Assembly (NCBI GenBank): GCA_039028935.1
Contig: JBCCHD010000020.1
Coordinates: forward strand, 1 to 64,000
Length of the DNA: 64,000 nt
Direction: 5' to 3'
Source: Pseudomonadota bacterium
GTDB taxonomy: Bacteria > Pseudomonadota > Gammaproteobacteria > Steroidobacterales > SZUA-146
Shown one piece after another: positions 7,843-21,888 of the stretch. The notes below the pieces were generated by a model. It had not been told where the DNA came from, searched no databases, and saw only the letters and a list, made by a program, of their open reading frames with translations. Within the stretch, counting starts at the first letter, position 1. Every line of letters begins with the position of its first letter. Made by a program: the position numbers and the translations under genes.

Positions 7843-9858
7843 CTACGCGTTGCGTATGACTCGATGACACCGACGACGTCGACCCACAGCGACCAGAATC
7901 GCCAGCACAATCGCGCCAGTCGCACCACCACCGGAGGCGGCGTCGGTATTGGCCGCCGGTGGATCCGGTGCGGGTGTCAATGGTGCCATCGGTCTACTGG
8001 TGCTATCGGTCGGGTCGGTGCCTGCCTGGACCTCTGCTCCATCGGACGACCCGTCATTGTCGGTATCGGCCTTGAGCGGATCGCTGCCGTGTTGGCCTTC
8101 CTCGCCGTCCATCAAACCATCGCCATCCGTATCGGCAACCGTTGGATCCGTGCCCGCCGTGTATTCATCCAGGTGACTAAATCCATCCTGATCACCGTCA
8201 TCGCTGCCATTTTGTGCCAACGAACCAAAGTAGTTGATCTCCCAACTGTCGGGCAATCGATCGCGATCGGAATCCGGATCCGGGTCGGGGTCAGGATCGG
8301 GGTCCGGATCGGATGCTTGTACGTTCACATTGCGAGAAACGGACACGCTGCCACCGTCGCCCGTGCAGGTTAACGTGTACGTCGCGGTGCTACTGGCCAC
8401 TACTGTGTTGCTGCCACTTGGCGGGCGATTACCCGACCAAGCGCCCGATGCGACGCAGGCGGTGGCGTTTGAACTGCTCCACACGAGGCTGATGGTGTCG
8501 CCTTCGGCTACCGAGGTCGGTGCCGTCAACGTTAATTGTGGCGCGGGCGGCACCGAGGTCGCGGCATACTCAAAAGCACCGATATCGATGGCGGACCCAA
8601 CAACACGGGCATTGCCGGCGAAATCTTCGCTACCTGCGGCAATATTGGCTCCCGCATCAATCAATGTCGACGTGGGCAACAAACGGAAATCCTGAAGTGC
8701 TGGATCGACAAAGTGATCGCTGGCCGCCGATCCGGCGATCACTCGCACGTAGTCGACGCTAATACCGGATAAGCCGCCGCGAACCACATTGTTGGCAAGA
8801 TCGGCATTGTCTAAACCGTCTCCCCAAAGTGCGGTGGCGTTCTCGCAGAAAAGCGCATTGTTCGCTACCACGACATTGGGCGCGCTTCCAACGCGCAGGC
8901 GCGCACACACCGGATGACTGCCATACACCGTGTTGTTAACGATGGTCACGTTCCGAATACTGGGCGCAGGACTTTGTACGCGCAGATGAATACCGTTGAC
9001 CGATGAATTGAGCACCACATTATTGCGGATGATGGCATCGGCGGTCACCAAAATGGCGTCACCGCAGTTATACACCAGATTATTCTCGACAATGTTCGGC
9101 TCAGCGCCATGACCGTACACGAAAATACATGGAAACTCGGTGCCAATATTGGTGTCGTGAATGACATTTCCACGCACGACATTGCCACCCGACCCGAACT
9201 TGATTTCGATGCCGTCATTGCCACCGCTGCTCGTTCCGCGAAGGTGATGAATGTAGTTATTTTCGATTAGGTGATTGGTGCCCGGCCCACCACCATTGTG
9301 CTGTCCGATATACATCCCTTCGCCTTCGGTATCACCTGACGCGAGGCCCGTATTGTAAATTTCATTACCCCGAATAATGTGAGCATCCGTTGCGCCGGAG
9401 TTCATGGTCAGCGCGTTATTGAGTGTGTCCGAAATAATATTGTCCTCAAAGGTAATATTATTGCTCGACATGAAGCGGACACCGGAACTGCCGTACTGAA
9501 AATGCATACCGCGAATCGTAAAATGCGACCCCGATAATTCAATATTGTTATTGCTCGAGCTACTCGATTGCGGGCGGGTGATGAGCGGTCTTGCGCCGTC
9601 GGCAGCGCGGATTAGAATAGGTTGATCGGGTGTACCGTTGATCGTTAGGCGTCTTGCGCAGGCCTGAGAGTAGACTCCATCGTTGAGAATCAACTCATCA
9701 CCAGGCATGAGCGCATTGGCCATGTTCTCGAACTCTTCGCTACACGATTCCGTGTCTGAAGGTGGCGAGAGCGTATACACCTCCGCGCGGGTGGCGAGCG
9801 ATGAGGTCGCGATGATCACAGCGGCCATAACCGCCGGGCTGAGCTTAAAGTACGACAT
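7843..9858 (-). CDS. Secreted right-handed beta-helix protein with TSP3 repeats and GlyGly-CTERM-like tail
   Basis: The preferred ATG has an AGG eight bases upstream; a GTG seven codons earlier is possible. Domain order is: signal peptide ending near ATRAEVYT; a parallel beta-helix of Asn/Val-rich coils (repeated NNI, RGN, ENN turns) as in NosD and pectate-lyase-like proteins; an Ig-like domain with two Cys; a run of six Asp-Pro pairs; three or more TSP3-like DTDGDG motifs that should bind calcium; and a tail with GGGATG, a hydrophobic helix and RRRR. That tail resembles the GlyGly-CTERM signal processed by rhombosortase, but extends several residues past the basic cluster. The beta-helix suggests binding or cleaving a polysaccharide; no catalytic site was identified. 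Confidence 0.85.
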   Translation of the reverse strand: MSYFKLSPAVMAAVIIATSSLATRAEVYTLSPPSDTESCSEEFENMANALMPGDELILNDGVYSQACARRLTINGTPDQPILIRAADGARPLITRPQSSSSSNNNIELSGSHFTIRGMHFQYGSSGVRFMSSNNITFEDNIISDTLNNALTMNSGATDAHIIRGNEIYNTGLASGDTEGEGMYIGQHNGGGPGTNHLIENNYIHHLRGTSSGGNDGIEIKFGSGGNVVRGNVIHDTNIGTEFPCIFVYGHGAEPNIVENNLVYNCGDAILVTADAIIRNNVVLNSSVNGIHLRVQSPAPSIRNVTIVNNTVYGSHPVCARLRVGSAPNVVVANNALFCENATALWGDGLDNADLANNVVRGGLSGISVDYVRVIAGSAASDHFVDPALQDFRLLPTSTLIDAGANIAAGSEDFAGNARVVGSAIDIGAFEYAATSVPPAPQLTLTAPTSVAEGDTISLVWSSSNATACVASGAWSGNRPPSGSNTVVASSTATYTLTCTGDGGSVSVSRNVNVQASDPDPDPDPDPDPDSDRDRLPDSWEINYFGSLAQNGSDDGDQDGFSHLDEYTAGTDPTVADTDGDGLMDGEEGQHGSDPLKADTDNDGSSDGAEVQAGTDPTDSTSRPMAPLTPAPDPPAANTDAASGGGATGAIVLAILVAVGRRRRCHRVIRNA
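8275..8310. repeat. Hexanucleotide tract encoding six Asp-Pro pairs
   Basis: Thirty-six bases of near-identical six-base units (variants of GGATCC or GGGTCG on the plus strand) encode six consecutive Asp-Pro pairs in the beta-helix protein. They form a stiff acidic linker between the Ig-like domain and the TSP3 motifs. Short tandem repeats like this can change copy number by slippage; each unit keeps the frame. Confidence 0.85.
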
Positions 9859-10108
9859 CGATATTGCCTGGAAATCCACTAAATCATCACCAAAAGTCTA
9901 CACAGCGCCCAACCGCGAAGTGTTAGCTGGTTCACACTTTGGCTGGCTGGCCGACGTCGTTGAGCCTACGTGGATTTCGACTTGACCAACTGTGTCGCCT
10001 ACGCCTCAGTTTGGCGTTTGACGTAATGAGCCTGGCACGGACTCGCCGGCGTGTTCAGACTTCTGCGATTGCGAAATGGCGCGGTAGAGCCACAGTGCTA
10101 CCTTTCGC

Positions 10109-10938: not shown

Positions 10939-11928
10939 CTACTGAACGAGCCCAACACCGAGTTGACGAAACACGTCGGGCATGAAGTGCGCAACCGTAC
11001 GGTCAATTCCCTGACTGTCCGGTCCCCCACCGTATAACAACGCGTACACCTTCAGGGTGTCGCGATCGATGATGAATGAACCACTGTCGCCGCCGGCGCT
11101 AAAGGCCTTACTGCGCGTGGCACCGACCAACTCTATCTGATCGTTGAACGTCACAATAGCGGGATCGGATTCGGAACCGTAGTTGAGCTGAATACCATCG
11201 AGTTCAAACGCACTCACGGTGCCACGCGTGACGCCCGTTGTACGCCCGCGTTTGATAACGCGCGACACGGCGAACCGATCGGACATGGGTGTTTTGTCGA
11301 TCACGCCAATACCGCTGTAGTCCCACGGTTCGAAGAATTCAACCTCCTCAGAGAAGGTGGCCAATGCGGCATCCACGCCATCTACTTTGGTTTTACTCAG
11401 TGGAATGTAGCGGTCGAGCAGACCCACAATCTTGGGGGTGGCTTGCCCTGCGTCAAGCGGCCCAGGCGCAACGATTGGATCGCCATGAAAGCACTGATTA
11501 CTGTTCGCGAACACATGATTATTGCTAAGCATGTAATAACCGTCTGCGTCTTCCACAAAACCACCGAGAGTGCCTGCGGTTATGCGATAGTGACCAATGG
11601 ATCCACCAGCCGTTAGTGTTGTACGCGGCTGATAGCGAATGCCGGTTACCAGATCAATCTCACCCATATGTCGATCGAGGTCTTTAAGGAGCGCCTTCTG
11701 CTGGCGTTCGCATCCTTGATATAACCGCACCGCCAGCTTGTACTCATCGCCTTTGCCAGGGGCTATGCCTACGGCCGCAATCGGTGTCGGTTCGCGAACG
11801 CTGAGCCGTCGTTGACGGCCCGCGCCGCGCGCGAGCGGATAGCGCCTCGCGGAGGCAGACCGGGACGAAAGCGAATAAGCCTTTTCCTGAATTTCCAGTT
11901 TCAATGCGCGGCACGACGACAGTTTCAT
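10939..11928 (-). CDS. Trypsin-like serine protease (Nal1-like)
   Basis: The start at 11928 has AGGAG eight bases upstream and gives 329 residues; the frame is open further upstream but without support. The chymotrypsin-fold triad is visible as His138 (MLSNNHVF), Asp186 (DGVDAALA) and Ser282 (SAGGDSGSF). Residues 48-98 (AAVGIAPGKGDEYKLAVRLY ... MGEIDLVTG) form a small alpha/beta domain typical before such proteases. A basic N-terminus is present but no convincing signal peptide, so its compartment is unclear. It lies downstream of the giant TSP3/OmpA gene, separated by a terminator, and is followed at five bases by a small protein repeating its N-terminal domain. Substrate unknown. Confidence 0.82.
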   Translation of the reverse strand: MKLSSCRALKLEIQEKAYSLSSRSASARRYPLARGAGRQRRLSVREPTPIAAVGIAPGKGDEYKLAVRLYQGCERQQKALLKDLDRHMGEIDLVTGIRYQPRTTLTAGGSIGHYRITAGTLGGFVEDADGYYMLSNNHVFANSNQCFHGDPIVAPGPLDAGQATPKIVGLLDRYIPLSKTKVDGVDAALATFSEEVEFFEPWDYSGIGVIDKTPMSDRFAVSRVIKRGRTTGVTRGTVSAFELDGIQLNYGSESDPAIVTFNDQIELVGATRSKAFSAGGDSGSFIIDRDTLKVYALLYGGGPDSQGIDRTVAHFMPDVFRQLGVGLVQ

Positions 11929-12050
11929 TACGCAGCTCCTTTGACGATGAACTCGATCAGCGTGGCGACAACCGCCCACTTTCCCGCTCGATATGCGCCG
12001 ACCTTCATGTGGGTTCTGGTTCCACACTATAGCGCGGAAAGCCATTTCAC

Positions 12051-12143: not shown

Positions 12144-15100
12144 TCAGGGCGATACGAATTTCAGCGAGACGCGTCGATTCGCCGCGCGGCCCTCCTTCGT
12201 TGCGTTGCTTTCAATGGGCTGTGTCAGCCCATAGCCACGAGACTGGAGCTGATCTCTGGGCACCCCTCGACTTACCAAATGCTCCAGCACCTGGTTTGCC
12301 CGTTGCTTAGACAAGCCCATGTTGTAGTCCGCCCCTCCCACACTATCGGTATGCCCACCGACTTCAATCACCAAATTGCGACGACCGCGCAGCATCGAAG
12401 CCGCTAAGTCGAGGTCGCGCTGAGATTGCTCGGTTAATTCATCGGATTTATAACCAAAGCGTATGTTGGGAAGGCGAATGTCTTGGGTCACATCGCAGCC
12501 CTTCTCGTCCACCACGGCATTTTCCGTTGAGTTAGCACATTGATCCTGGCCATCCGGAATCGCATCGCTGTCTGAATCGATGACACCGCCATCGACCAGA
12601 CGGAGTTCGACACGGCGATTGGCCGCCCGGCCACTGTCAGTGCTGTTGTCATCAACTGGTCGCAGCTGGCCGTAAGAAACCGGCTGGAGGCGCTCGCGCG
12701 ACACACCGCCGTATGTGACCAAGAACTCGACCACCTGTTTCGCACGCATTCCGGCAAGACCGCGATTATAGTTCTGCCCCCCTACGCTGTCGGTATGTCC
12801 GGCAACCTCAACCATCACGCCTGGGCTGTGCGACAAGCATACAGCCGCATCGCGCAGACGCGCATCGGACTCGGCCGTCAGTGCATCAGACTTATACGCA
12901 AAATACACCGGACGCAGATCGCAGGTAGTCGGATCCACGATGATGCGTCGCGTGCAGCCTGTGCTATCGACCTCATCGCCCTTGGGCGTATCGGGACAGC
13001 TGTCCATCGCGTTGATCACACCATCACCGTCGGAATCCAGCACGCGCTTACAACCATTGCTGTCCACCGATGTGCCGGCAGGTGTACGCGGACAGTTATC
13101 CATCGAATCGATCACACCATCGGCGTCGGAATCCAGTACGCGCGCACAACCACGCGCGTCAACAATCGCACCACGCGCCGATCGCGGACACGCATCGATT
13201 GAATCGAGGACCCCATCAAAATCGGAGTCGAGATCGCGCTTAGGCGCCACCGCAGCGCCGCGAGGCAATCCGAAACCACGACCGATGGCGATGCCGGCAT
13301 ACCAGGCATCGCGATCGTAGAAATCGATATCACCACGCGCAAACCATGGATTTTCGCCAAAGTCGTAGTCCGCACCCAATCCAAACGCAAATTGTGCGCT
13401 GGTCTGTTGTTCGAACGGCACAGGGCCCCCACCCGCTTCATTCTCAATGACCGAAATCCCGGCCTTAACAAACGGTGTTAATTTGCGATTAACCCGAAAG
13501 CGATAACCGGCCATCAACGACGGTACGGTGTAGCTGATGTTGGCGCCTGGAAAGGCGGCCGCGATGGCCGGATTCCGATTGGTAATACCCGCCTCGCCAA
13601 GGTCCGCATACTTTAATTCTGCAAACCATCGCTCGGTGAACTGCTTACCGATAAAAAGCTGAATACCACCGTCGTGATTTTCCGACGCATCGTGGAAAAA
13701 GTTTTGTGCTTCTTCATCCGGCGATACGTAGGAGTACCCGAGTCCGATACCGCCATACCAACAGTCGCGCCAGCGAAAATCACTGCCCACCTGCTCGCGC
13801 GCTTCGCCCCGATGCTGACCCAGCGCACAGCCGCCATCGGCCCAAGGATCGCCGTTGTTCGACTGAGCCTGCGCAGGCAGTGCCAACACGAACAGCAGTA
13901 TCAACAGGCCCGTCCAGAGCGGTGCACGTGCGTGTGAGTTACGTTTCGATTGCGTCACAGCCTTTCCTTTCATTTGTCCAATGTTTAGCGCGAGCGGCAT
14001 CCGCTGGCGGCGCGCAAGCGCCACCAGCATGATTGAGAACAACGCCAGCAACCCAATCGAGCCCGAGCCCTCGAGTGCGGTTTCGAGTTCTTCACCCGCA
14101 TCGAGGTAGTCCGGAATGCCATTGTTGTTGAAGTCGTTAGTGCCCTCCAGTACATCAAGAATGCCGTCGTTATCACTGTCGGTGTCTCGAAGATCTGGTG
14201 TGCCGTCGCCATCGGTGTCCACCGGCGAGTTGAGGTTTTGTGCCTCCACCGCGTCGGGGATGCCATCGTTATCCGAATCGGTGTCATTGAAATCCGGATT
14301 GCCATCGCCATCGGTATCGGCTGTGCCCTCTACCGAATCGGGAATACCGTCACGATCGGTATCGGCGAGTGTGCCAAACCCATCAAACAGATCCACGGGA
14401 TCGGCAATGCCGTCGCCATCGGAATCAGTGGGATCATCCACCACGCCGTCACCATTGGCATCCGACGACTCAAACAACGTGCCGACTATGTCCGGCGTAC
14501 CGTCGTTATCGCTATCGACTTCTCGCCAGTCGCCAATGCCGTCGCCATCGGTGTCCACCGGCATGGAGATGGTGCCTTCGTTCGTCGGCACATCATCGAT
14601 CACACCGTTGAGATCAGAATCCGGGCCAACCGCCTCCTGTACATCCGGAATACTGTCGTTATCCGCATCCAGATCAAGATAGTCCGGCGCCATATCGCCA
14701 TCGGTGTCGGTGGGCATCACGCTATCATCAACGCCATCGCCATTGGCGTCGGTGCCCAAAGTGATATCCACGTCATACAGATCGTTAATACCATCGCCGT
14801 CACCGTCCGCCATGGGATCCAGATCGGTTTCCACGGTATCTGGAATACCATCATTGTCGGCATCGATGTCGACAAAGTCGGGACTCCCGTCGCCGTCGGT
14901 ATCGATCGGCATTTGCGCATCGTCCACGCCATCGCCATCGGCATCACTGCCACCGGTCTGGTCGATGTCATAGGCATCGTCAATGCCGTCACCATCGGTA
15001 TCGAAACCGATCGCGACGCCGTCTTCCACGGTGTCGGGTAACCCATCCGCATCGCTATCAAGGTCCAGATAATCTGGGGTGCCATCGCCGTCTGTATCCG

Positions 15101-18100
15101 ACGGAACCGACGGGTCACCACCCGCTTCATTGCTATCTGGAATGCCGTCGTTATCCGAATCGGGATCCAGCATATCCGGAGTGCCGTCACCATCGGTGTC
15201 TACGGGGTTCAACGGATCGGCACCGGCCTCGACACTATCGGGAATACCGTCGTTATCCGAATCAGGATCCAGCGCGTCGATAATGCCGTCGCCATCGGTA
15301 TCCATGTTTTCCAGGTTATCCGGTACACCATCCCCATCGGAGTCTGGGTCGTTCGGGTCGGTACCCAAATCGATCTCAGTGCCGTCAGGAATGCCGTCCA
15401 TATCCGAATCACACGCGGCGGCAGTGTTGTCCGGCACACACGGGTCGGTGTCTGCGGCCACATCCGGCTCAATCGGTTGGGTCGTCGTCGGTGTACCAAA
15501 GTCCACGGCGCCATCGCCGTCCGTGTCCATACAGCCCATGCCTGGGAAGTTGGGGACACAGGCGTCGTTTGGATCAGGATCCGCGCCATCGGAAATGCCG
15601 TCACCATCGGTATCCAACAAATCGTCAGCGCCATTGCCAGCGGTTGGATCGGTCATATCGGCGGTGGCTTCAATGCCGTCGGTGACACCACCATCGTCGG
15701 TATCGGTATCGAGCGGATCGGTTGGACCTGTGCCCGAGAGCGGTCCAGTTCCGACTACCTCGACACCGTCGGTGAGGCCATCGCCATCGCTGTCAGGGTT
15801 TGCCGGATCGGTTTCACCGCTGCCGCTGGTGCCCGTGCCGCCAATTTCGACAGGACCCGTTGCACCATCGCCGTTGGCATCTTCCACGCCGTCCTGCAGT
15901 CCGTCGTCGTCGGTATCGGGATCGGTCGGATCGGTCAACGTGGTCGGATCACTGTCGGGCACGAACGCCATCGGATCGGTGCCGTCGAACGCCACTCCGT
16001 CGCCGTCACTGGTGCCGCCAGGAATCGGATCGGTTGCACCCAATTCGAGGCCATCGCCCAACCCGTCACCATCGGTATCGGGATTCAGTGGATCGGTTTC
16101 GTCACCGCTATTCATCACGCCATCGGGACCCAGTGCCTCATCGCCATCGGACAATCCATCGTTATCGCTATCGGCATCCAGCGGATCCGTGTCGCCCGCA
16201 TTGACGGTTCCGTCGTTACCAATCTCATCGCCATCGTCGATGCCATCGTTATCGGTATCGGGATCGTTGGGATCGGTTCCCAGGACCGCTTCTTGCGCGT
16301 CGCTGATGCCATCGCCATCGGAATCGGTTGACGCATCATCCGCGCCGTTACCGGTCGTCGGATCAGTGCCGTCGGTGAGCACTTCCGTGCCGTCCTCGGT
16401 GCCGCCATCGTCCGTATCACTGTCGAGCGGATCGGTTGCCCCAACCATGCTCAAGGGACCGGTTCCGTTTGTTTCGTCACCGTCGATCAGTCCGTCGCCA
16501 TCCGTATCCGGGTTATTGGGATCGGTTTCACCCGAACCCATCGTGCCGGTTACGCCCAGCGTGTTAACGGTCGCGCCATCGCCATCAGCGTCTTCGTCAC
16601 CGTCGATCAGCCCATCGTTATCAGAATCGGGATCCGCCGGATCGGTGGTCGTCGTTGGATCCGCGTCCACCACAAAGTTTGGCGACGCGGTGTCGGTACC
16701 GAAGTACATGACGCCATCGCCATCGCTTGTTCCATCCGGAATACCGGCGATCACGCCAAGCTCAGTGCCGTCGAGAATACCGTCATTGTCGCTGTCAGCA
16801 GCGAGCGGATCGGTCTCATCACCGGTCAGCGGCATGCCGTCGGCGCCATTGACCTCGTCACCATCGCTAACGCCATCATCATCAGTATCGGCATCAAGTG
16901 GATCGGTATCATTCGGATCGAGAACGCCGTCTGCACCCACTTCCGCACCATCCGGAATACCATCGTTATCGGTATCGGCATCGTTTGGATCGGTACCCAG
17001 CAGCATTTCCTGCGCGTCACTCAAGCCGTCCATATCGGTGTCAATCGACACATCGTCGGCGCCGTTTCCGGCCGTCGGATTGGTGCCATCGGACAGCACT
17101 TCGGTTCCGTCGCCGGCGCCACCGTCATCGGTATCGACGTCGAGCGGATCGGTGGAACCAATTCCTGCTAAAGGTCCCGTCTGATTGACTTCATCACCGT
17201 CTGTCAGACCATCGCCATCGGTATCCGGGTTGCTCGGATCGGTTTCGCCGCTGCCCGGCGTGGTCGAGTCACCAATTGTGTTGATCGTTGCGCCGTCACC
17301 ATTGGCGTCCTCATCGCCATCCAGCAGACCGTCGCCGTCGGTGTCGGGGTTGGTCGGATCCGTGGTGGTGCTCAAATCCGCGTCACCCGGGAAGCCAGCG
17401 GCCGTGCCGTCATACGGCGTACTGTTGCCGTCGCTCGTACCAGGGTCGACACCATCAAACGACACGCCCGCTTCAATGCCGTCATCGATACCGTCGCCAT
17501 CGCTGTCAGGATTGAGCGGATCGGTTGGCCCATACGGCGCAAGCGGACCGGTGCCATTGACCTCATCGCCATCGTTGATTCCGTCATCGTCCGTGTCCCC
17601 ATCCAGTGGGCTGGTCTCGCCAGGATCCAATACGCCATCCGGACCCACTTCTTCGCCGTCGGTTAGGCCATCATTATCGGTATCCGGATCGTTGGGATCC
17701 GTACCGAGCACCCCTTCGAGTGCATCGGATATGCCATCACCATCGGAATCCACCGCGTCATCTAACCCGTTACCGGACGTCGGGTCGGTCATATCCGTGG
17801 TGGCTTCAGCGCCGTCCAGCGCGCCGCCATCGTCGGTATCGGTATCCAGTGGATCGGTGGGACCGTAAGGAACCAGCGGGCCCGTACCATTGACTTCGTC
17901 CCCGTCGGTCAGTCCGTCACCATCGGTATCACTGTCGTTTGGATCGGTTTCACCCGAGCCGGGCGCACCACCCGTACCGCCGATTGAATTGAGCGTCTGG
18001 CCATCGCCATTGAGGTCTTCCTGACCATCGGTGAGACCGTCGCCATCGGTGTCGGGATCCAGCGGGTCGGTTGTCGTGGATGGGTCCGCATCACCCATAA

Positions 18101-21100
18101 AGGCGGGGTCCGTCCCCATAATCGGTCCGGCGCCATCGGGATCGGCAATGCCGGCCACCACGCCGGCTTCGACGCCATCGATGATGCCGTCCGCATCTGT
18201 GTCTGGGTTATTCGGGTCGGTTTCGCCCGCATCGACCATGCCGTTGCCGTTGGCGTCCTCATCACCATCGCTGATGCCGTCATCATCGGAATCGAGATCC
18301 AGCGGGTTGGTATCGCCTGCATCAACACTGGCATCACCGCCGGTTTCCACACCATCCGGTAGGCCGTCGCCATCCGTATCAGGGTTGGTCGGGTCGGTAC
18401 CCAGCGTCGCCTCGTCGGCATTGGTCAGTCCATCCATGTCCGCATCACAGTTCGGCGCGGTATCGGATGGAATACACGGATCCGTATTGGCCGGATCGCT
18501 TTCATCTGGGAAGCCATCGTTATCCGTATCAATGATGGAGGACTCTTGGAAATCCGGAATGCCATCACCATCGGAGTCCGCCGTTGGGCCTTCAACACTA
18601 TCGGGATCGCCATCACCATCGGTGTCGATCAGACAGTTGGTGCCAAACGCACTGGGAATACACGGATCCGTATTGGCCGGATCGCTTTCATCCGGGAAGC
18701 CATCACCGTCCATATCGGCATTCGACGGCTCAAGATAATCTGGTGTGCCGTCACCGTCTGAGTCGGCGGTGGGTCCTTCAACACTGTCCGGCTCCCCGTC
18801 ACCATCCGTGTCGGTGGTACAGCCCATGCCAAACTGACTGGGATCACATGGGTCCGCGTTATTCGGATCATCTTGATCCGGTGTGCCATCGCCGTCAGCG
18901 TCATCGGTTGCGGATTCCAGGTAATCCGGTGTGCCGTCGCCGTCCGCATCGTCATCGGCAAGATTGCCGTTACTGTTGTCGTCTTCGTCTGCCGTGTTGA
19001 TGCCATCGTCGTCATCGTCTTCGTCACGCCAGTCGCGATCAGCATCGCCATCGGTGTTTTGCAGCGGACTGTTACTCGCGGTGCTGTTGCCCGCCCCCGG
19101 TCCACTTTGGGTGTCAAACACGTCGTTGAGCCCGTCGCCATCGGCGTCGGCATTGATGTCCGCGATCACGACATCCGGGATGCCATCACCGTTCGCATCG
19201 TGACCTTCAATCGAATCGGGCACATTGTCATTGTCCGAATCGTCATCGAGAAAATCGGGTTGATCGACCCCATCGGTATTCGCGATGGTAATCGGCGTGC
19301 CGCCGTTATCGGTGTCGTACGCGTCATCGATACCGTCCATGTCGGTATCCATGCCGGTCGGCGGCGTGTAGGCACCCTCCCCCTGTGCTTCCACATTGTC
19401 GACGATGCCGTCATTGTCTGAGTCGATGTCTTGTGAGTTTGGAATTCCATCGCCATCCAGATCACCGGCACCTTCATCGACATCGAGGATGCCGTCGTTA
19501 TCGTCGTCAGGATCCGTCGCGTTTGGAATCCCATCGCCATCGGCATCGGGACTCACTTCATTGGTGTCGTCTCGATCGACGCTCATGCCCGCTGAATCGA
19601 GCTGATCGGTATACGTTACCGTCACCGTGTCGCCAGCCTGTGTATTGAGCGTGCCGTCATTGTTCACACCCGCAGTCGTGCCGGGTGTGGTCGCAACGGT
19701 GCCGCTAAAGACGCCCGTGTTCGGGCCGGTTTCGGTCAACGTAATCTGTTCAGTTTCGCCGGTGACATCGTTTACAACCGTCACGACCAGCGTCTCGACC
19801 AGTGCCGCGTTCAAATCCAGATCGGCGTCGGTGACGGTGATGGTGAGCGTATCGCCCGGTTCACTTGTCTCATCGATCGTTACCACACCATCGACGCCGG
19901 TGAGAGCGGTATCGTCGGCGGTAATCACCAAATTGGCCGTCGCGGTCGACTCCAACCCGTACACGTAGGTATCAATAAAGCGCGCATTACCGAATCCGCT
20001 GCTCGTAAAATCTCCCCAGGTGTGACTACCGGCAGCCGTTCCCGACAATTCGCCGAGAGGGACGGTCGAGGTGCCGCCTGCACCGGCCCCCAGCACCGTC
20101 ACGTCATCCCAGTAGATCTGGGTCGGCGAGGTGACACCGACTAAATCCGATAGAAAGATTGTGAGGCCGTCTTCGCTGGGCCCACCGCTTGTTTCCGCAT
20201 CGTTAGAGACAAAGTGATACTCACCCATGCGCACGGACACTTGCGCCGCATACGCGCCGGCGGGGAGTGGGTTGCCATCCGGATCGGTCCCGTTATACGT
20301 CACCGAGTTTAGGCCGACGACCGCACGTCCGAGCAACAGCGTGTCACCGACATTACCAAACACGCCATTATTGTCGACGTCGATGAATACCGAATAGGTG
20401 CCTTCGACATCCGAGTTGAACTCAAAGGTGCCGTCGTCCTGAACACCACTGGTTGATGGGTCAGGCGAAATTCCGATGTCCTGACCTTCGTTGTCGATGA
20501 ATCGCAGTCCTGTCACCGACGGAGGTGTGGTCGGTTGTGGATCCGCGATGGCCGGTACGCCCAGGTAGTTGGGGTAGCGATACTCAGCGTCATTACCGAC
20601 CAATGGGGTTGAAAACCCGGAATTGGGTGAATTAACACCGATATCGTTGGCGATAATGTTGTAGCCAAAGCCCGCAAAGTTGTTGAGATCGAGCTGCCAT
20701 ATGTAATTGGTGTTGGGTCTGCCGCCAGGCACCAGCGCATAAAAATTGGCGTCAGTGGCATTCGCTTCAGCGAAAGAGCCCGCATTGAAGTTCCAGCTGT
20801 ACGCCCACAGTCGACCCGCAGCGACGGTTGGATCGGGGTCTGTCACGGCATCCGGCGTGACGGTGATATCCAGGCGCTCAAAAAAACCGTTCGAAAAGTT
20901 CGTGCCCGTTACGTTTTGCAGCACGAGACGATACGTACCGACCTCGGTGGTTGTGTATCGCTCGGGATTCGTGAGCGGCGCGGTCATCGTGTCGGCACAC
21001 GACACGTTACTGCTGGTCAAGTTGGACGTAAAAGCCGGCGTCGCGTCGTCGGACGGCGCGAAGACTTCGATGCTCAATGCATCGGTATCCTGCTGACCGC

Positions 21101-21347
21101 AGAGCGATACGTTGATCACTTCACCGATGGTAAAAATATCGACAAAGTGAGAGAACGTATCGGATTCAGCCGCATCGGCATAGCCTTGAAGTGCGGCTTC
21201 CTCGGCACCCAACACGCGCTGGGTAAGACCGAGCTGTGCAGAACCTTCGGCGAAGGCAAACGACGTTGAGAACAGCGCAGCCAATGTGATGAAAAGCGGC
21301 GTGCTGCGCGGTCGAATTCCGCTGGAACGGCGTGAGTATCGTGACAT
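12144..21347 (-). CDS. Giant TSP3-repeat surface protein fused in frame to an OmpA-type protein (3067 aa)
   Basis: The ATG at 21347 has AAGGGA seven bases upstream and begins a signal peptide ([15 protein letters not shown]). About 570 residues of beta-rich domains follow, then some 1800 residues (roughly 600-2410) of calcium-binding TSP3 motifs of the type DTDGDGIPD. At residues about 2425-2450 comes a Gly/Ser turn, hydrophobic helix and basic cluster ([23 protein letters not shown]), which looks like a C-terminal anchor. Only about 15 residues later a second signal peptide ([18 protein letters not shown]) starts an OmpA-like protein: eight-strand barrel, three TSP3/Cys linkers and two OmpA C-terminal peptidoglycan-binding domains ([14 protein letters not shown] in both). 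No stop separates the halves. Either one huge wall-linked protein or a recent or artefactual fusion of two genes. Confidence 0.85.
13956..13973 (-). promoter_or_regulatory. Internal translation start for the OmpA half
   Basis: On the minus strand, AAAGGA lies six bases before GTG at 13958, which would begin a normal 30-residue signal peptide and a 604-residue OmpA protein. An in-frame ATG at 13973 is the alternative. A ribosome site at exactly this place suggests the OmpA half was, or still is, translated on its own. Confidence 0.5.
15630..18440. repeat. Four higher-order tandem repeats of about 235-239 codons in the TSP3 region
   Basis: The segment coding for PTxGNGADD recurs at about 17766, 17061, 16344 and 15630, spacings of 705, 717 and 714 bases. 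Between markers each unit has the same order: [14 protein letters not shown], GxDGVLDxGDTDPLD, [38 protein letters not shown] and GTGPL. The units are diverged from each other, so the array is old enough to have drifted but kept its order and frame. Confidence 0.8.
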
Positions 21348-21888
21348 AGTAGAATCCCTTATTGCCCGGTGCGCCCTGTTGGTGTCCGGTGCATTATTAG
21401 ATGATAGTGACTGTGTACCCACCGTCGGCGAGCAATGTCGCCGAAAGCATTGATTTGCGTACTTTTATACCCCTAATGTACGCATACTGCGGGTCAATAC
21501 TATGATGAACATCTCATCTTGATCAATGTTAACATTTGCACCGAACGCGTATACCGTATCTCATTGTAAGTTATCTATTTTTACGGTTACCGCCAGTGAG
21601 GCAATTGCACCCCACCCGCCCTTGCCCGGGTTAATTGCGCCGCTTTAACGTTTTCTGGGGTTATGCCAAACCGGCAATTTAGGGGAATCCTCGACATTTC
21701 GCATCGGCCCCACTCGATCCCCAACGGCGTTCACATCACGGCGCCCCGCTCTTGGCCCAAATGGCGACCACGTGATGACGGCGCCACATCGGGCGACCGG
21801 CAAAACCCTCGGTCATCGCACGAATCGGTGCTTGCGTCGCGTCGGTAGAACCGCTAGCGTCAACCGTCCCTTTCGCACCGCCCCTCCT
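21348..21888. other. Intergenic region between the giant gene and recQ
   Basis: This 541-base stretch separates two divergent genes. The half next to the giant gene (about 21440-21580) is AT-rich and holds a 12-base perfect palindrome, AATGTTAACATT at 21525-21536, overlapped by TTGATCAA at 21519-21526; these could be operator sites. A TATAAA on the minus strand at 21464-21469 has no partner -35 at normal spacing. The half next to recQ is GC-rich. No small gene or structured RNA was recognised. Confidence 0.5.

Follow-up and report, generated by a model that had tools for sequence, protein, structure and literature searches.

A gammaproteobacterial reading frame joins a TSP3 protein with an internal GlyGly-CTERM-type tag to an OmpA-type protein and may encode a polyprotein

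Introduction

The GlyGly-CTERM sorting tag was defined as an extreme C-terminal feature, and Haft and Varghese suggested that this position helps in the choice of substrates (PMC3237569). In Vibrio cholerae the tag is cut by rhombosortase, and the new C-terminus bears a glycerophosphoethanolamine-containing group (PMC6219818). JDVT-CTERM has been described as a sorting tag found in a two-gene neighbourhood with MrtJ, a member of the myxosortase family (PMC11980579). In Myxococcus, the tagged surface protein TraA and the barrel-TSP3-OmpA protein TraB are encoded by overlapping genes (PMC3325183, PMC6372800), and a 1:1 complex of the two has been proposed (PMC12045341). Sorting tags of this kind are terminal by definition, and bacterial polyproteins that are cut at internal signal peptides are rare. 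One such case is the fbcH gene of Bradyrhizobium, a single gene for a cytochrome b/c1 polyprotein with an internal signal sequence, from which two mature proteins arise after signal peptidase cleavage.

The gene described here lies in the first 64,000 nucleotides of contig JBCCHD010000020.1 (hereafter the window), from a Pseudomonadota bacterium of the order Steroidobacterales (assembly GCA_039028935.1). Like the VesB-type proteins of V. cholerae, its product runs from a signal peptide through a passenger to a G/S motif, a transmembrane helix and a basic cluster, and its genome has both rhombosortase and a type II secretion secretin; the tag, however, lies inside the chain, with a second signal peptide and a complete outer-membrane protein directly behind it. 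In relatives, passengers of the same family carry JDVT-CTERM, with MrtJ in the genome and, in at least three, just behind the pair, and one fused gene (genome G268) bears a JDVT-CTERM tag internally; the window tag, in contrast, is of the GlyGly type and its genome gave no MrtJ match at E <= 1e-6. As with TraA/TraB, a tagged surface protein is paired with a barrel, TSP3 and OmpA protein, here known from architecture and linkage, whereas the Myxococcus system has two genes, a MYXO-CTERM tag with Cys and a PA14-type head. The likeness to fbcH lies in one bacterial gene with an internal signal sequence and, as proposed below, two products; fbcH differs in that it serves a respiratory complex of the inner membrane, its product is cut once and bears no sorting tag, and neither mature protein belongs to the outer membrane. 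Type V autotransporters likewise combine a passenger with a C-terminal beta-barrel in a single frame. Searches of the open-access literature returned no description of a GlyGly- or JDVT-CTERM tag that lies internally and precedes a signal peptide.

Results

The gene is a single open frame on the minus strand, with a likely start at ATG 21347 and a stop at 12144 (3067 codons); the same frame is open further upstream to a GTG at 21422 (3092 aa). An initial annotation of the window had described it as one frame of this length holding a signal peptide, TSP3 repeats, a hydrophobic tail with a basic cluster, a second signal peptide, a barrel and two OmpA domains, and this description is borne out by hydropathy, composition and Pfam matches inside the frame (TSP3_bac, OMP_b-brl and two OmpA domains). 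The resulting features are collected in Table 1.

Table 1. Features of the fused gene, with coordinates in the window.
Feature	Coordinates	Strand	Basis
N-terminal signal peptide	21249..21347	-	cut expected after AFA, residue 58 (numbering from GTG 21422)
Passenger head, all-beta (Ig-like) domains, conserved family	19548..21248	-	homologues, alignment, model
TSP3 calcium-binding repeat array, 1823 residues	14079..19547	-	TSP3_bac PF18884 and composition
Predicted internal GlyGly-CTERM sorting signal: GSGS motif, transmembrane helix 1, RRQR cluster	14004..14069	-	TIGR03501
Short basic linker, expected to be cytoplasmic; holds AAAGGAAAGG, Shine-Dalgarno-like	13959..14003	-	sequence
Predicted internal signal peptide (transmembrane helix 2), signal peptidase I site AQA|Q	13866..13958	-	hydrophobic segment 2498-2518 ending PAQAQ
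Eight-stranded outer-membrane beta-barrel	13272..13760	-	PF13505 at residues 2557-2703
TSP3-like periplasmic linker	12930..13229	-	repeats; Foldseek match to OmpA TSP3 and C-terminal domain 5wtl
First OmpA peptidoglycan-binding domain	12615..12905	-	PF00691, 66.8 bits
Second OmpA peptidoglycan-binding domain	12174..12458	-	PF00691, 79.6 bits

The N-terminal hydrophobic segment (residues 41-58) ends AFA|EGS, and by inspection and hydropathy the signal peptide spans residues 26-58; the EGS..GL stretch at the start of the mature passenger is kept in homologues. About 570 residues between this signal peptide and the repeat array form other all-beta domains that are not TSP3. Homologues of this passenger head, 46-56% identical, occur in eight other genomes of the class sample described below. 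Pfam and NCBIfam gave it no clear name, FlgD_ig being a weak match, and its AlphaFold model was all-beta and poor (pLDDT 59.6). The TSP3-like array itself (residues 626-2448) is 26% Asp, with 63 DxDxDG motifs, a net charge of -541 and only five K/R. Antisense to it, on the plus strand at 15079-17184, is an open frame of 701 aa that is most likely a shadow of the TSP3 repeat codons and not a gene. One further genome (G202) has at least three members of the passenger-head family with TSP3 arrays (L118, L119 and L120); two of these lie on short contigs that end within the repeats.

Structural prediction of the OmpA half, run in AlphaFold with an alignment of 19 fused sequences, gave a barrel of eight main strands (block pLDDT 80-96) and modelled the two OmpA domains well, while the junction helices were of low confidence. 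Foldseek matched the model to OmpA barrels (9fzc, 1bxw) and to OmpA-like domains. The half thus combines the eight-stranded barrel and the PF00691 wall-binding domain by which the OmpA family is recognized. Membership of the TraB family (NF033763) was considered and rejected, with a score of 140 bits against a cut-off of 700 and a match confined to the C-terminal region. The next gene downstream (10939-12045, minus strand, 368 aa) has a sub-threshold Nal1_C match only.

At the junction of the two halves, the two strongest hydrophobic segments of the whole chain adjoin (residues ~2451-2472 and ~2498-2518). The first coincides with a match at residues ~2452-2473 to the NCBIfam GlyGly-CTERM model TIGR03501, which scored 16.8 bits against a cut-off of 15.5 (17.8 bits in the genome scan), and the hydrophobic tail with its basic cluster is thereby recognized, by sequence, as a sorting tag of the GlyGly-CTERM type. 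About 620 residues follow the tag in frame, so that it is not at the extreme C-terminus; on present evidence the gene lacks this one defining feature of GlyGly-CTERM proteins yet would appear to work like a member. Between the helix cores there are eight K/R and no D/E. The second segment leads to AQA, a site of the signal peptidase I type, directly before the mature OmpA half.

Profile searches were made in 369 genomes of the class and 296 of the order, and 34 fused junctions were inspected. A G/S-rich motif, a tag-like helix, a K/R-rich linker and a second helix were present in all 34. No D/E was counted in the linker at 32 of them, and 33 had an AxA-like site at the end of the module, a descriptive count insofar as the module ends were chosen by hand. 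Several internal tags of relatives scored at or just below the GlyGly cut-off and one gave no score at all. Some passengers are TSP3 arrays and others consist of different repeats. Fused frames occur in another family of the order (genome G017, where the barrel homologue sits in a frame of 3037 aa), in two metagenome-assembled genomes (L016, Gammaproteobacteria; L017, Woeseiaceae) and in the cultured species Marinibactrum halimedae; among 200 genomes sampled across the phylum, the window's own gene was the only one found. The genome of the window has a second fused gene on another contig (C30; L034, 517-4071), with a passenger unrelated to the TSP3 one. This passenger consists of seven VesB/HYDIN-like Ig domains, a further likeness to the VesB-type systems, and is followed by an internal tag of the GlyGly type and an internal signal peptide; the junction, GGSGGVGSLGWLSLAGVLLAVARRLRLGALMLALGLSAAAMA, leads to a different OMP barrel that ends in F and has no OmpA domain. 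The fused architecture of tag, signal peptide and barrel is recurrent in Gammaproteobacteria, and the initial annotation, which had called it not a normal design, was only partly right.

The frame is also open through the junction in the homologues, while the +1 and +2 frames at the window junction carry stops. In all six pairs that were compared, pN/pS across the junction was below 1 (about 0.08 to 0.66), with constraint in several of the six weaker there than in the flanks. The 3067-codon frame, with both of its halves, is genuine and not an assembly error, because homologues in other families are fused likewise.

The same two halves also occur as separate genes. For nine of the 14 stand-alone barrels in the class sample, the gene immediately upstream encodes a passenger with a tag-like tail, and the gap from stop to ATG in split passenger/barrel pairs ranges from -8 to +87 bases. 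This pairing is clear only for the TSP3/OmpA group; in the order sample, stand-alone barrels of about 200 aa related to that of L034 are not preceded by tagged passengers. The passenger head of the window gene occurs as part of a fused frame in G268 (L117) and in a separate passenger gene in G362, G100 and further genomes. In a tree of 28 barrel-OmpA halves the window gene falls in a clade of nine members, all of them fused (support 100/99). The one-gene or two-gene state changes at least four times on the best tree (three to five times in bootstraps), with only one change forced by strongly supported branches. The comparison of homologues proposed in the initial annotation therefore returned a mixture of both forms, and its claim of one frame stands since the homologues are mixed and the gene's own clade is entirely fused. 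The fused forms retain both the tag and the signal peptidase site, as expected if both are used.

Rhombosortase was found in the genome of the window at 143.5 bits (cut-off 84) and the type II secretion secretin GspD at 544.6 bits (cut-off 351). In the remaining GlyGly-CTERM proteins of this genome the chain stops, as is normal, immediately behind the basic cluster. One such protein is encoded within the window (7843-9879, minus strand), a right-handed beta-helix with TSP3 repeats and the tag at its ordinary C-terminal place. In the class sample, rhombosortase was present in 17 of 17 genomes with a fused gene against 126 of 369 overall, and in the order sample in 16 of 16 against 212 of 296 (Fisher test). 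Two of the fused-gene genomes (G220 and G634) were classed by frame length only. Rhombosortase was present as well in 12 of the 13 class-sample genomes with a stand-alone barrel only, and the co-occurrence is confounded by phylogeny, which may explain much of it.

Several relatives carry a different tag, with Cys and a DPxLPL-like stretch, whereas the window tag has no Cys. A JDVT-CTERM match (34.6 bits against a cut-off of 27) was obtained both in a split pair (G362) and in a fused gene (G268). The gene that follows the split pair is MrtJ in G362, G134 and G240 (104, 105 and 99 bits against 75). MrtJ at L115 7140-7598, L126 1486-2001 and L127 296-772 directly follows split passenger-OmpA pairs and forms a three-gene cluster with them. 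Across 27 scored genomes, MrtJ was above its cut-off in all 10 with the Cys-type tag (three fused, seven split) and in two of the 17 with other tags (Fisher p about 8e-6, phylogeny ignored). In G268 the MrtJ gene and the fused gene are on different contigs, the former near a stand-alone barrel hit, and MrtJ may act on the fused protein of that genome. The occurrence of the fused design with two unrelated pairs of tag and protease speaks for a function of the internal tag.

Discussion

From these sequence features we consider it likely that the gene encodes a polyprotein, which would yield a surface TSP3 fibre and an OmpA partner through cuts by an intramembrane sorting protease and by signal peptidase I. 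The first signal peptide would start Sec export of the fibre, the GlyGly-CTERM helix would stop transfer and leave the basic cluster on the cytoplasmic side, and export would resume at the second signal peptide for the OmpA half. Signal peptidase I would then cut after AQA and so free the barrel for insertion into the outer membrane. A cut by rhombosortase at the GSGS motif would give the fibre a lipid-type C-terminus, as shown for VesB, and the fibre would be displayed on the surface, probably by way of type II secretion. The two products may be physical partners, a rod at the surface and a barrel by which it is held to the outer membrane and peptidoglycan, as their likeness to TraA/TraB and the linkage of their genes suggest. 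The split homologues would arrive at the same two products by the ordinary route.

Cleavage is favored because the fused forms retain both cleavage signals, which would be needless in an uncut chain. The initial annotation had offered two readings, a product cut in two at the inner signal and a single chain that ties the fibre to membrane and wall. The former is better supported, since the tail is a recognized tag, both cleavage signals are kept in fused homologues and split pairs exist elsewhere; the fate of the latter is discussed below. Against the polyprotein speak the internal position of the tag, contrary to the terminal definition of GlyGly-CTERM, the low scores of several internal tags in relatives, the phylogenetic confounding of the rhombosortase co-occurrence, and the possible internal start considered next.

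An alternative that we regard as unlikely is internal initiation, in which the OmpA half is translated separately from a possible start at GTG 13958 and read-through gives a minor fused product, or is merely not selected against, so that the locus would in effect be two overlapping genes in one frame. At the window junction AAAGGAAAGG lies just upstream of this GTG, which would begin a normal signal peptide n-region, so that the OmpA half of this particular gene may also be initiated separately, and in split relatives the starts overlap and are probably coupled. As a general rule for the fused genes, however, internal initiation was rejected, since the linker lacks any ATG, GTG or TTG at half of the junctions (17 of 34). 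Only three of the 34 offer a start accompanied by a Shine-Dalgarno-like site, the nearest fused relative (L013) has none, and the linkers of many relatives are a few residues long, which leaves scant room for an n-region.

It is rather improbable that only one of the two proposed cuts takes place, with signal peptidase I freeing the barrel and the sorting protease refusing a tag that precedes another helix, so that the fibre would stay in the inner membrane by its helix pair. Such a product would agree with the view that tag position is part of substrate choice (PMC3237569), the tag here not being C-terminal, and with the internal tags that do not pass the GlyGly cut-off. Yet the hallmarks of the tag (G/S motif, helix and basic cluster) are preserved in the fused genes, the same passenger family bears a terminal tag where the genes are split, and internal tags of the JDVT type co-occur with MrtJ.

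The single uncut chain, an autotransporter-like polypeptide in which the TSP3 fibre would have a permanent link to the OmpA barrel and the wall, is very hard to uphold. Its frame is unbroken and has the order of type V secretion, passenger first and barrel last. The two adjacent, strongly hydrophobic helices between the halves, present at all 34 fused junctions, would nevertheless insert in the inner membrane and hold the uncut chain there. The barrel, moreover, is of the eight-stranded OmpA type with periplasmic wall-binding domains and is not a translocator barrel; for these two reasons the gene was not assigned to the type V autotransporters. The existence of split homologues also counts against a permanent tie. 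Finally, an artefact in which a lost stop codon or an assembly indel (the initial annotation had considered one near 13980) joined two ordinary genes in one genome would fit the presence of the pair as two genes in some other species, but this, like chance read-through, is ruled out for practical purposes by the independent fused homologues in many families, the all-fused clade, the conserved frames with pN/pS below 1 through the junction, and the second fused gene in the same genome.

To return to the polyprotein, we lean towards a more general form of it, in which a portable cassette of two helices, a sorting tag and then a signal peptide, would allow Gammaproteobacteria to produce both a surface protein and its anchor in the outer membrane out of a single chain. 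Two unrelated intramembrane proteases, rhombosortase and MrtJ, would serve the cassette, which would have been fitted to different passengers and barrels; the internal tags would be functional and the partners fixed at 1:1. Cleavage of the chains in the proposed way would mean that sorting proteases accept internal tags and that surface protein and anchor are guaranteed in equal amounts. Surveys of sorting tags that are restricted to the ends of proteins would miss the fused proteins. The fused genes may also serve as a Rosetta-stone link, by which otherwise unassigned tagged surface proteins are paired with specific OmpA-like barrels, and they suggest that TraAB-like pairs of fibre and anchor may be widespread outside the myxobacteria.
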